Positions 13,296 through 24,010 of a DNA stretch of 31,144 nt are shown piece by piece. The notes beneath the pieces are model-generated. The model was not told the DNA's origin and made no database searches. It was given only the letters and a program-made list of their open reading frames with translations. The stretch spans positions 1-31,144 of the IMG/VR virus record IMGVR_UViG_3300047557_000342; one strand, 5' to 3'. This DNA comes from a virus. Positions within the stretch are counted from its first letter, which is position 1, and each line of letters begins with the position of its first letter. A program made the translations under genes and the position numbers.

Positions 13296-14363
13296 ATGCA
13301 AGCAAAAGCCACCGACGATCAAATCCTAAAGGCACTACAGGACGCCAACGGCATACGATCCGTCGTCGCTAACAAACTGGGGCTGAACGAACGAAGCCTA
13401 CAGATGCGGATTAAGAAGATGAAGGCAAAGGGCTACATCGTTCCTGAGTCCACATATCAGCAAGGCGCCGTCAAGCAAGACGTAGAGAAGCCCGGATTTT
13501 CCTTTACCCCGCTGCCCGACGACGACATTCCTATCGAAGAACTGATTGAGCAGCGCAAGCGCAAGTTCCTACACAAGCGCGAACACGAAGAAGCCTCCAA
13601 ACTGATCCCGATTCGGGTCAAGTTGGGGGGCGCTATCGGCCTGCTGCACTTTGGCGACCCGCACGTAGACGACGACGGCTGCGACATCGGCGCAATTGAG
13701 CGTCACACGGCGCTGGTGAACAAGACTGAGGGGCTGTTTGCCTGCAACGTGGGCGACACTACGAACAACTGGTGTGGCCGCCTAGCCCGACTCTACGCCG
13801 ACCAGAGTACGTCAGCGGCGCAAGCCTGGAAGATTGCCGAGTGGTTTGTTGGCCGCTGCGACTGGCTGTACATGATTGCCGGAAACCACGACTTGTGGTC
13901 AGGTTCGGGCGATCCGCTGAAGTGGATAGCCAAGCAGCAGAACTCGCTTTATAAGTCCTCAGAAGCCCGTATAGCGCTTCGGTTCCCCAACGGCATGGAA
14001 GTGCGGGTCAACGCTCGCCACGACCACAGCGGCTCGTCTATTTGGAACCCGGCGCATGGCCCGATGAAGGCAGCCATCATGGGAACCCGCGACCACATCT
14101 ACGTGGCCGGTCACAAGCACGAGAGCGCTTATAGCGTGCTGAAGGATGCGATTACGGGTATTACCATGCACGCGGTTAAGGTCGCCTCATACAAGGTGTA
14201 TGACCGTTACGCCAAGGATCGAGGGTTCAGGGACAACGCCCTGTCACCCTGCGTCCTGACGACGATTAACCCAGACCTACCGCCTGACCATCCAGACTTG
14301 GTGAAAGTGTGGTGGGAACCGGAAGAGGGTGCGGACTACCTGAGTTTCCTGCGACGGCGCTAA
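13296..14363 (+). CDS. Metallophosphoesterase with N-terminal helix-turn-helix
   Basis: 355 residues. Residues about 8-48 form a HTH (ILKALQDANGIRSVVANKLG then LNERSLQMRIKKMKAKGY), resembling Fis-type or replication-regulator HTHs. Residues about 105-330 are a calcineurin-like phosphoesterase with the metal motifs GDPHVDD (D121, H123), GD at 153-154, GNHD (196-199), an HDH and a GHKHE. Such enzymes cleave phosphodiesters or phosphomonoesters with two metal ions. The HTH suggests the enzyme acts on or near DNA. It is in a late-reading position but faces the convergent leftward operon; its 3' end overlaps the antisense gene at 14266-14529 by 98 nt. Confidence 0.82.
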   Translation: MQAKATDDQILKALQDANGIRSVVANKLGLNERSLQMRIKKMKAKGYIVPESTYQQGAVKQDVEKPGFSFTPLPDDDIPIEELIEQRKRKFLHKREHEEASKLIPIRVKLGGAIGLLHFGDPHVDDDGCDIGAIERHTALVNKTEGLFACNVGDTTNNWCGRLARLYADQSTSAAQAWKIAEWFVGRCDWLYMIAGNHDLWSGSGDPLKWIAKQQNSLYKSSEARIALRFPNGMEVRVNARHDHSGSSIWNPAHGPMKAAIMGTRDHIYVAGHKHESAYSVLKDAITGITMHAVKVASYKVYDRYAKDRGFRDNALSPCVLTTINPDLPPDHPDLVKVWWEPEEGADYLSFLRRR

Positions 14364-14529
14364 AAATCTCAGCGCGTTCCCGAGCGGCCCGCAAGATGCA
14401 GTAGCGTTGGTGCAGCCGCTTGAGGAACGTCGTACGACGCTGACCGACGATCTCATCGTCAAGCAGGGCTTTGACCTGCTCTTCGTTCAGCGAGTTCAGT
14501 GTTTGGTTAAGTGAGCGCCAGTTGTTCAT
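14266..14529 (-). CDS. Small helical protein, phage-conserved, unknown function
   Basis: 87 residues. The first 58 residues form a compact helical unit: NNWRSLNQTLNSLNEEQVKA, then ERLHQRY-like KRLHQRYCILRAARERAEI. I recognise this as a recurring phage protein type, without a known role. The rest (about 58-87) is read from the antisense strand of the metallophosphoesterase and is low-complexity, so it may be an unselected extension. A TACAAT box (14536-14541) lies exactly 6 nt upstream of the ATG and no Shine-Dalgarno is visible, suggesting a leaderless transcript. It is the last gene of the leftward operon headed by the Cro-like gene. Confidence 0.65.
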   Translation of the reverse strand: MNNWRSLNQTLNSLNEEQVKALLDDEIVGQRRTTFLKRLHQRYCILRAARERAEIFSAVAGNSGSPHPLPVPTTLSPSLDGQAVGLG

Positions 14530-14535
14530 GGCGCT

Positions 14536-14541
14536 ATTGTA
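14536..14541 (-). promoter_or_regulatory. -10-like TACAAT 6 nt before ATG (leaderless start)
   Basis: TACAAT is read on the minus strand with a TTGCAG about 18 nt further upstream as a weak -35. The gap to the ATG (AGCGCC) is 6 nt. Transcription starting about 7 nt after the box would begin on the A of the ATG. Confidence 0.45.
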
Positions 14542-14547
14542 AACGAA

Positions 14548-14856
14548 TTATTTAAGCCGCTGCAAGTACAGGGCTTGAAGGGCGCATACGGTGTCGTCGG
14601 CGTCCCTGCCTTCGTACCACTCGCCCCTAGGCTCAAACAGCCCCCTAAACCGTTTCTGGCCGTCTGAGAGCCGCCCGCCTTTCGCCTTGACCTCTACCCA
14701 GCATATCCACGCCATGCCGTCGTGCATGGGCTTTACGGCAAGCAGGTCGGGGATGTCGTGACCGGCGCTGGCAAAGTCGATGACCTCGAAGTTGGCTTTG
14801 CGGAGGGCTTCGACTATCTCGGTGTGGTTGTTGTCACGACGTTTGGCGTAGCGCAT
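14548..14856 (-). CDS. VRR-NUC-like PD-(D/E)XK nuclease
   Basis: 102 residues. It shows the order of a compact PD-(D/E)XK enzyme: an N-terminal helix with E13 (NNHTEIVEALRKANFEV), then DIPDLLAVKP with D37, and WVEVKAKGG with E55 and K57. This is typical of VRR-NUC and Holliday-junction-resolvase-like phage nucleases, which cleave branched or flap DNA. The catalytic residues are all present. It ends with a DTVCALQALYLQRLK helix. A CATAAT box lies 6 nt before the ATG, overlapping the stop codon of the preceding gene; no Shine-Dalgarno is evident. It may resolve recombination intermediates made by the ERF and YqaJ-type proteins encoded on the other side of the switch. Confidence 0.8.
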   Translation of the reverse strand: MRYAKRRDNNHTEIVEALRKANFEVIDFASAGHDIPDLLAVKPMHDGMAWICWVEVKAKGGRLSDGQKRFRGLFEPRGEWYEGRDADDTVCALQALYLQRLK

Positions 14857-14862
14857 GGGGCT

Positions 14863-14868
14863 ATTATG
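14863..14868 (-). promoter_or_regulatory. -10-like CATAAT 6 nt before ATG
   Basis: Minus-strand CATAAT overlaps the TAA of the preceding gene and stands 6 nt (AGCCCC) before the nuclease ATG. This could be a secondary leaderless promoter or could simply reflect translational re-initiation across the 7-nt gap. Confidence 0.3.
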
Positions 14869-15178
14869 CCGCTTCCGCCCTTGCCTTCAATCTGTTTACG
14901 CCAGGTTCGCCCCACAACTCCCTGACCATGCCACGGATATGCGGGTCGCCGTAGGCTTCCTTCACATCGGTCAGGCTGCGAAGGATGTCGCCCACGTAGT
15001 TCTTGAGCCACGACGTGCGCTCTGCCCGCTGCGACCAATCACCCACGTTAATGCGAGCAAGGTACGCGTCGGCTAACCGGAGTTTATGGTAAGGATTATT
15101 CCTTACCGACTCCCAGTACCGGACGTTCGCCTCGGACGCCCACGAGATGTCGCTACTAACGATCTGCTGCTGGATCAT
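14864..15178 (-). CDS. Small helical protein of the leftward regulatory operon, unknown
   Basis: 104 residues, helical, with an IQQQIVSSDISWASEANVRYW start and a C-terminus of DPHIRGMVRELWGEPG then Ala/Glu-rich (quoted in parts). No catalytic motif or membrane helix is visible. It overlaps the end of the Cro-like gene by 23 nt and is read in a different frame, so it probably follows it in one transcript; GGTGAAG lies just upstream of the ATG as a weak Shine-Dalgarno. The protein has the pattern of small phage regulators or anti-host factors but I do not recognise it. Confidence 0.65.
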   Translation of the reverse strand: MIQQQIVSSDISWASEANVRYWESVRNNPYHKLRLADAYLARINVGDWSQRAERTSWLKNYVGDILRSLTDVKEAYGDPHIRGMVRELWGEPGVNRLKARAEAA

Positions 15179-15329
15179 TTGGCTTCACCACGCATTGAAT
15201 CTGATACAGCCGCAGGGCAGGAATCTTGTTTTCCTTAAACCAACGCAGCACGGCCTGACGAGTCACGCCTAACGCCCGAGCGATCTCCGCTTGGGAACCA
15301 TAAATCTTGAGTAGTTGCTTCGGTGTCAT
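15156..15329 (-). CDS. Cro-like helix-turn-helix regulator
   Basis: 57 residues. A typical Cro/CI-type HTH: SQAEIARALGVTRQAVLRWF (residues 12-31) with helix 2 AEIARALG and recognition helix TRQAVLRWF, followed by the KIPALRLYQIQ segment characteristic of Cro-like folds. It starts at ATG 15329, directly beside a divergent promoter pair with a perfect inverted repeat, as expected for an autoregulating phage repressor. Transcription from the minus promoter would start about on the A of the ATG, so the mRNA looks leaderless and no Shine-Dalgarno is present. Without an integrase in view it is more likely an early-gene switch than a lysogeny repressor. Confidence 0.82.
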   Translation of the reverse strand: MTPKQLLKIYGSQAEIARALGVTRQAVLRWFKENKIPALRLYQIQCVVKPNDPAADR

Positions 15330-15335
15330 GGGCGC

Positions 15336-15364
15336 ACTGTAACGACTGTTGACACCATAGTCAA
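15336..15364 (-). promoter_or_regulatory. Leftward promoter of the Cro-like gene
   Basis: On the minus strand TTGACT (15359-15364), a 17-nt spacer and TACAGT (15336-15341) give a good sigma-70-like promoter. The -10 box is 6 nt from the ATG at 15329. The -35 lies within the inverted repeat shared with the rightward promoter, so binding there would block both. Confidence 0.65.
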
Positions 15365-15366
15365 CA
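15347..15366. promoter_or_regulatory. Operator: perfect inverted repeat TGTTGAC-N6-GTCAACA
   Basis: Arms at 15347-15353 and 15360-15366 pair exactly. It covers the -35 of the rightward promoter and the -35 of the leftward one. A further TTGACT at 15376-15381 forms a second, wider repeat with AGTCAA at 15359-15364. The adjacent Cro-like protein is the obvious candidate ligand; this is inference. Confidence 0.65.
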
Positions 15367-15376
15367 TGCGTATACT
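15349..15376 (+). promoter_or_regulatory. Rightward early promoter
   Basis: TTGACA (15349-15354), a 16-nt spacer and TATACT (15371-15376) form a near-consensus sigma-70-type promoter firing into the recombination/replication operon. Its -35 is inside the operator. Confidence 0.75.
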
Positions 15377-15413: not shown

Positions 15414-15629
15414 ATGGAACAAGATGACTTCCGCATCTTGCAAGAGCAAGAGCGCGACAGACTCATGGAACTGCACTGCCGTGCAGAACACGCAGCCTTC
15501 AACGTCATCGAAGGCTTGAACGAACTCAACCGCATCGAAGCCGAAGGCGCTTTCAAACTGCACCAGGCATTTGCCGAGTGCCTCGCTGCTATTGACGCTG
15601 CATCCGCCAAACTGAGGGAACCACAATGA
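15414..15629 (+). CDS. First gene of the early operon, small helical acidic protein
   Basis: 71 residues, predicted almost fully helical, rich in Glu and Ala (MEQDDFRILQEQERDRLMEL and onward). ATG 15414 has GGAG at 15404-15407, 6 nt upstream. The 4-base overlap with the ERF gene (ATGA) suggests that the two are made together. It may be an accessory to the ERF protein or an anti-host factor; no family is recognised. Confidence 0.68.
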   Translation: MEQDDFRILQEQERDRLMELHCRAEHAAFNVIEGLNELNRIEAEGAFKLHQAFAECLAAIDAASAKLREPQ

Positions 15630-22917: not shown

Positions 22918-22954
22918 GGTTAGTTGCTCCAGGTAGTTATGTGTCAACGATTCC

Positions 22955-22984
22955 TTTATACCCTAGGGCGTTTCATAGTGTCAA
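22955..22984 (-). promoter_or_regulatory. Strong leftward early promoter with GTTGACAC motif
   Basis: Minus-strand TTGACA (22979-22984), an 18-nt spacer and TATAAA (22955-22960) give a sigma-70-type promoter for the small-gene operon; transcription would begin around 22948 and leave a 30-nt leader. The -35 is embedded in TGTTGACACTATG, which resembles the left half of the operator at 15347-15366; a second GTTGACAC lies downstream in the leader. Confidence 0.72.
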
Positions 22985-23038
22985 CAAATAATTTACAGAT
23001 GATACCAACCCCTGACGCTGTGCAATTCTGGTGGGTAT

Positions 23039-23238
23039 GTTAGGCAGAAGTTAGGCGACGTTAGGCAGGGTTAGGCAAGTCAAAATAGGGATTTTGTAAA
23101 GGAAAAGAGAAAAGAGAGACGAAACTATCCAGGTTAGGCGAGATCGAGCCGTCTAGGTAGTCACCAAGTTAGGCGAAAGTAGGTAAGTAAAAAAAGACTG
23201 AAAAGTAAGGGGAAAAGCAAAAGGTATGCGAGTTAGGC
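23039..23238 (+). repeat. GTTAGGC iteron array, candidate replication origin
   Basis: Seven direct copies of GTTAGGC start at 23039, 23050, 23060, 23070, 23133, 23168 and 23232. The first four are spaced 11, 10 and 10 bp, so they lie on one face of the helix, as protein-binding iterons do. Purine-rich stretches separate the others. No gene lies in the region. An AT-rich block follows about 300 bp to the right. Iterons with an AT-rich unwinding region are the usual form of a phage or plasmid origin. Which protein binds is not visible; the helicase at 18837-20165 is a candidate partner. Confidence 0.6.
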
Positions 23239-23770: not shown

Positions 23771-23800
23771 TTGTTATCTCGCCAAACCTTCTGTTACAGT
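23771..23800 (+). promoter_or_regulatory. Rightward promoter before the packaging operon, leaderless type
   Basis: TTGTTA (23771-23776), an 18-nt spacer and TACAGT (23795-23800). The -10 box stands 6 nt (TCCCGC) before ATG 23807, so transcription would start at the ATG. The layout is nearly the same as that of the Cro-like gene (TACAGT-GCGCCC-ATG). Confidence 0.5.
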
Positions 23801-23806
23801 TCCCGC

Positions 23807-24010
23807 ATGGCACTAAAGATGACGGAAGAGGAGTGGTCGCAGTTTGCTGCCACGGCTTTGGTATGCCGCTCCTGCTTCTGGTCTGCCGAAGTAACCCGTC
23901 CGCAAAACAAGATTTGGTGCGCTCATCGTGTCGTCCACGGTTGGGTGACGGATAAGCCTCGATGCGACGGTCTGGCCTTTAAGTACGAGGACAAACGTGG
24001 AGACGTTTAG
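23807..24010 (+). CDS. Small Cys-rich protein, possible zinc-binding
   Basis: 67 residues (MALKMTEEEWSQFAATALVC). Four Cys (VCRSCFW, IWCAHR, PRCDG) in a C-x2-C...C...C order, plus two His (AHRVVHG), suggest a zinc site. No Shine-Dalgarno precedes ATG 23807; instead TACAGT is 6 nt upstream. It overlaps the TerS GTG start by 14 nt. It might regulate late genes or help terminase; the function is unknown. Confidence 0.62.
   Translation: MALKMTEEEWSQFAATALVCRSCFWSAEVTRPQNKIWCAHRVVHGWVTDKPRCDGLAFKYEDKRGDV

Follow-up and report, generated by a model that had tools for sequence, protein, structure and literature searches.

Putative leaderless starts at four genes of a freshwater podophage clade

The virus, its relatives and the four genes

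The window, the complete 31,144-base IMG/VR virus record analysed here, is a freshwater virus of bacteria, a podophage. Its terminase large subunit is 69% identical to the homologue in an uncultured Manatee Spring podovirus and 66% identical to the one in Phage DSL-LC05 from Dishui Lake, and its portal protein matches a phage portal family; no near relative at the DNA level was found among annotated phage records. Contigs that carry related terminases in genome assemblies fall mostly into bins of freshwater beta- and gammaproteobacteria, although two of the bins are actinobacterial and contamination of bins is possible; the host is therefore probably a proteobacterium of these freshwater groups. 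Relatives were collected from IMG/VR with three single-protein scans and three alignment scans, yielding some 400 loci, many of them on the same contigs, which were collapsed to distinct upstream sequences before counting per gene.

Three of the genes considered here lie on the minus strand: a Cro/YdaS-like regulator gene of 57 aa (15156..15329; Pfam P22_Cro 3.9e-11, YdaS_toxin 5.2e-10; PHROG 409, transcriptional regulator), a VRR-NUC nuclease gene of 102 aa (14548..14856; Pfam VRR_NUC 1.3e-06) and a gene of 87 aa (14266..14529) for a small, conserved, uncharacterised protein with an LHQRYC motif. The fourth, on the plus strand (23807..24010), encodes a Cys-rich protein of 67 aa and is the first gene of the late/packaging operon. 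Annotated phage records (50,697) contain no match to the VRR-NUC protein and only four to the LHQRYC protein, all below 60% identity.

Each gene has a putative leaderless start, at 15329, 14856, 14529 and 23807, respectively, with a -10 hexamer ending exactly 6 nt before the ATG. On the minus strand, these are TACAGT (15336..15341) with the spacer GCGCCC, CATAAT (14863..14868) with AGCCCC and TACAAT (14536..14541) with AGCGCC; on the plus strand, TACAGT (23795..23800) is followed by TCCCGC and preceded by TGT, giving an extended -10. Shine–Dalgarno (SD) matches amount to 0–3 bases at each gene and never to 4 or more, and all four SD-less units of the original prediction were recovered. At 14529, 14856 and 15329, no in-frame start of the ORF precedes the ATG; at 23807, one in-frame ATG lies further upstream (23750), itself without an SD. 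Homologues begin with ATG in 56 of 59 cases for cro, the three others being low-identity hits in which the start is not placed, and in 54/54 for VRR-NUC and 20/20 for the late gene. Coding variation begins at the ATG, with third-position changes in codons 2–4, and this codon-like pattern from the very first codon indicates that the starts are well placed.

Among 56 hand-picked start positions, two of which are not start codons, four reached a -10 score cut-off at spacing 6, and these were only the four genes; the cut-off had been set after the four had been seen. The other 39 spacings gave a mean of 0.36 and a maximum of 3 of the 56 positions above the same cut-off, and shuffling the upstream sequences with dinucleotides preserved returned at least four at spacing 6 in 6 of 5000 trials. 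Taken alone, this within-window excess is modest, and neither the hand-picked starts nor the post hoc cut-off bears on the evidence drawn from relatives. In 13 genomes (the window, ten IMG/VR relatives and two phage records), ORFs of at least 45 aa show a peak at spacing 6 in the -10-like boxes that precede their ATGs, with 63 versus typically 20–25, a count in which some boxes fall inside a conserved exonuclease gene and close relatives are counted repeatedly. When the roughly 50 window genes with homologues were tested gene by gene over relatives, a -10 at spacing 6 was found in the four only. An independent promoter scan, whose total of promoter-like sites was no higher than in shuffles, identified -35 partners for the cro-like (17 nt) and VRR-NUC (16 nt) boxes.

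The spacer had been described as C-rich, and in the window phage it is. Relatives carry, for example, GCAACCT, CTCGGT, CCGCTT or AAAACA instead, so that the distance is kept and the letters are not; this variation rules out a C-rich spacer as a conserved element. The original prediction was to fall if the spacing were absent in close relatives; it was checked there and is kept.

The cro-like gene and the two genes behind it

At the cro-like gene, a -10-like box lies 6–8 nt before the ATG in 34 of 43 distinct relative upstreams, and all nine without a box have an SD-like match of at least 4 bases in its place. The upstream sequences thus place the cro family in two forms, one predicted to be leaderless and one leadered. 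A 4-base SD-like match also occurs in 9 of the 34 boxed upstreams; in the cases inspected (e.g. GTGA in L254) it lies upstream of the -10 and therefore outside the predicted mRNA. The hexamer itself changes across lineages (TACAGT, TACTGT, TATTGT, TATCGT, TAGTCT, TATCCT and TAAAAT), all of these being -10-like.

The -35 box of this gene, TTGACT (15359..15364, minus strand), lies 17 nt upstream of the -10 and was identified by the promoter scan and in ten relatives, which carry TTGACA, TTGACT, TTGACG or TTGTCA at 17–18 nt, with TTGCGA at 16 nt in the two most distant. It forms one end of a 16 bp palindrome, TTGACTATGGTGTCAA (15349..15364, both strands), whose other end is the -35 box of a rightward early promoter, TTGACA-N16-TATACT (15349..15376, plus strand; 11/12 matches in the promoter scan). 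The palindrome has no second perfect match in the window, close relatives have TTGACNNNNNTGTCAA, and it is likely to be the operator bound by the Cro-like protein. Because the -35 boxes of both divergent promoters fall within it, one bound Cro dimer would shut both. The rightward transcript has a predicted leader of ~30 nt with GGAG before the ATG at 15414, as in an ordinary leadered gene. The Cro/YdaS helix–turn–helix protein adjoins divergent promoters, as is characteristic of a Cro-type switch regulator; no opposing CI-type repressor gene was found among the window proteins scanned, which cover part of the ORFs of a contig that may be incomplete.

Two further observations concern this family and its palindrome. 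Several cro relatives at ~40–50% identity (L149–L163) have an AGGAGG-type leader, with the -10 farther upstream. On the minus strand at 22941–22990, inspection by eye revealed TTGACA-N18-TATAAA and a second TTGACA, likely the promoter of a leftward operon of small genes (22917 to ~20200); a repeated GTGTCAAC in this region (minus strand) resembles half of the cro palindrome.

The VRR-NUC box is present at 6 nt in 30 of 44 distinct upstreams, reading CATAAT in 23 of the 30, and is missing in the other 14. The first base of CATAAT is a C, and the gene before it ends with the TAA inside this hexamer. A -35-like TTGAAG (14885..14890, minus strand), found by the scan and in relatives, lies 16 nt upstream of it within the preceding gene and is unchanged in close relatives with the same upstream gene. 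Support for a leaderless start is weaker here than at cro, 14529 and 23807.

Homologues of the LHQRYC gene have TACAAT, TACAGT or TATGAT at 6–7 nt in 12 of 21 distinct upstreams; the box is missing in the remaining nine, four of which also lack an SD. By eye, a -35-like TTGCAG (14560..14565, minus strand), half of which agrees with the consensus, can be read in the end of the VRR-NUC gene, 18 nt before TACAAT. The hexamers of both cro and 14529 differ by lineage and yet remain -10-like at about the same position, a pattern left unaccounted for by plain inheritance of a short sequence. In Stenotrophomonas and Pseudoxanthomonas phages, homologues of the LHQRYC protein are encoded beside DNA polymerase I; in MW202483, the homologue follows an SNF2-like ATPase gene, has GGAG upstream and lacks a -10 box at 6 nt.

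The late gene and its invariant block

The late gene shows the strictest arrangement, with the box at exactly 6 nt in 33/33 distinct upstreams over ten different spacers. It overlaps an invariant 17 bp block, GCCAAACCTTCTGTTAC (23781..23797, plus strand; -26 to -10 relative to the ATG; cited too as GCCAAACCTTCTGTTACAGT and GCCAAACCTTC), which is identical in 35/35 distinct upstreams, is flanked by variable sequence on both sides and occurs once in the window. No conserved -35 was found at this promoter among the distinct relative upstreams. These features would fit an extended -10 late promoter that may need a further recognition factor. A CRSCFW ... WCAH ... C pattern, resembling a small zinc ribbon, is conserved in the protein, which has no PHROG match.

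An 850-bp non-coding stretch precedes the late operon and holds an iteron-like array, present in some relatives only, of seven plus-strand copies of GTTAGGC (23039–23238), four of them 10–11 bp apart. One repeat copy, AGGTTAGGCGAGAT (23131–23144), equals the reverse complement of ATCTCGCCAAACCT in the late promoter (23776–23789) with one mismatch, and the reverse complement of the late block, AGGTTTGGCGAGAT, likewise agrees with the copy at 23131 at all but one position. A protein binding both the repeats and the late promoter is possible. Co-conservation does not support a link between array and block, the array being confined to some relatives and the block invariant in all.

Leaderless reading, alternatives and known systems

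Leaderless transcription of the four genes, as originally predicted, is strongly supported by comparative sequence evidence, and the four genes are best explained by leaderless initiation, most convincingly cro, 14529 and 23807. We regard it as highly probable that each gene has its own sigma-70-type promoter, with a -10 ending 6 nt before the ATG, and that this promoter would yield a leaderless mRNA translated from its 5'-AUG. Transcription by host RNA polymerase would begin at the A of the ATG or at most 1–2 nt from it, and the message would be translated by 5' AUG recognition through the 70S/IF2 route, with no SD. The promoters of 14856 and 14529, lying inside the operon downstream of cro, would make expression of these two genes independent of cro repression; both may also be translatable from the cro operon transcript, the two routes acting together.

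A somewhat unlikely alternative is that 14856 and 14529 are read from the cro operon transcript alone and translated by coupling or re-initiation, their hexamers being by-products of stop codons and AT-rich gaps. The two genes do start 7 and 18 nt behind a same-strand stop, CATAAT includes the stop TAA, and several more SD-less window genes begin at the preceding stop; the remaining coupled genes of the phage, however, have no such box, the -35-like hexamers upstream of both genes are unchanged in close relatives, and the 14529 hexamer varies among TACAAT, TACAGT and TATGAT over 56–100% protein identity while remaining -10-like at 6–7 nt. The boxes may instead be promoters whose transcripts carry a very short leader of 1–5 nt, making 'leaderless' an approximation. 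Many promoters show a scatter of a base or two in their start sites, and cro spacings of 7 or 8 nt occur in many lineages, in clade B and beyond, where the transcript could consequently carry a 1-nt leader. We consider such leaders unlikely as a general account, since a 6-nt spacing puts the A, in most cases a purine after a pyrimidine, at the commonest start position, and the late gene keeps spacing 6 without exception.

For the late block, conservation for packaging (pac/cos) rather than transcription, with the small gene starting elsewhere, for example at Met5, would agree with its position directly before the packaging genes and with the invariance of Met5. We judge this improbable: the block ends in a TG-extended -10, Met5 has no preceding SD, and Met1 is likewise invariant, with codon-like changes straight after it. 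As for chance matches to a loose hexamer, TANNNT-type boxes are common and the window count was reached in those few shuffles, but the boxes are conserved in relatives, including lineages whose hexamers differ, which makes such matches extremely improbable, and for cro, 14529 and 23807 the relatives largely rule them out.

The wider claim of two gene sets fared less evenly. Clear GGAG sites, ascribed to the other genes, are found at about two thirds of them; about a dozen further genes lack a clear SD, most of which begin on or close to the stop codon of the gene before them, in tightly packed operons, and a strict division of the genome into leaderless and led classes is therefore rejected. 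Likewise, the description of the leaderless set as regulatory and packaging-start genes suits the Cro/YdaS regulator and 23807, which opens the packaging operon, but not the VRR-NUC nuclease or the LHQRYC protein, leaving only one gene that is clearly regulatory. HNH and endonuclease VII-like genes of relatives share the arrangement of a -10 box 6 nt ahead of the ATG (TATACT at L196:13000; TATGCT at L178:15215, minus; TACAAT at L195:1593, minus); this suggests promoters that are compact and self-contained rather than the mark of a regulatory class, and leaderless promoters may be carried by mobile genes. A collection-wide scan for TTGACA-N17-TATAAT with an ATG at 6 or 9 nt gave totals that are not comparable between the two distances; among the matches listed, the ATG opens an ORF of at least 40 aa in 92/136 cases at 6 nt and 62/121 at 9 nt. 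These sampled counts suggest that short or absent leaders, with the -10 within 6–9 nt of the ATG, are common in environmental phages. It is quite unlikely that the four genes form a coordinated leaderless class in this phage clade (switch regulator, two genes behind it and first late gene), serving 70S/5'-AUG translation when infection alters SD-dependent initiation, with a phage factor recognising the invariant 17-bp block of a late promoter without a -35.

The leaderless mechanism is already known from lambda cI, PY54 cI and cro, paaR2 and TA-led genes. In lambda, cI is transcribed from PRM as a leaderless repressor mRNA beginning with AUG, and the original prediction was correct in naming it as a precedent; CI serves as the lysogeny repressor and is made from a promoter that requires activation, whereas the gene here encodes a Cro/YdaS-type protein. 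PY54 cro and cI, and paaR2, are closer. For both PY54 genes, 5' RACE gave a single leaderless mRNA (PMC4488713); PY54 cro is likewise a Cro-type regulator gene with its -10 right before the ATG, and that box, CATAAT, is the VRR-NUC box of the window. In PY54, a linear plasmid prophage, both switch arms are leaderless and no further gene was reported to be so (PMC4488713), whereas in the window cro is leaderless by sequence, its divergent early neighbour carries a predicted leader and three more genes, including the start of the late operon, appear leaderless. The mapped transcription start of paaR2, which lies opposite a YdaS gene in the cryptic prophage CP-933P, coincides with the start codon (PMC8630535); there the leaderless partner is PaaR2, and here it would be the YdaS-type gene itself. 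A TA-like signal ~10–12 bp upstream marks leaderless genes in bacteria at large (PMC3160421), as does TANNNT ~6–7 bp before the ORF in Deinococcus (PMC12340547). The four genes resemble such TA-led genes of bacteria and Deinococcus–Thermus in having a -10 motif ~6–7 bp before the ORF and no SD (PMC3160421, PMC12340547); that pattern is host-wide, whereas here it concerns a few genes in a phage that otherwise mostly uses SD sites. Thermus phage phiYS40 also has leaderless mRNAs (PMC3594737), in a host in which leaderless genes are very common, unlike the probably proteobacterial host of the window phage.

Among phages, the leaderless genes studied in depth are mostly lone repressors or regulators, and a literature search for leaderless late genes returned no match. 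It is unusual for one phage to have several genes with leaderless starts, among them the opener of the packaging operon; what is new is how many such genes a single phage clade has, their use at the late operon and the invariant promoter block found there. The interest of the case accordingly lies in this number, in the two-state cro family and in the invariant late block, within a clade whose four such starts can be traced in many environmental sequences. For annotation, gene finders that rely on SD sites may misplace starts of this kind. The cro family, with a -10 at 6–8 nt and no SD in one state and an SD with the -10 further up in the other, offers a natural series for asking when and why genes turn leaderless.
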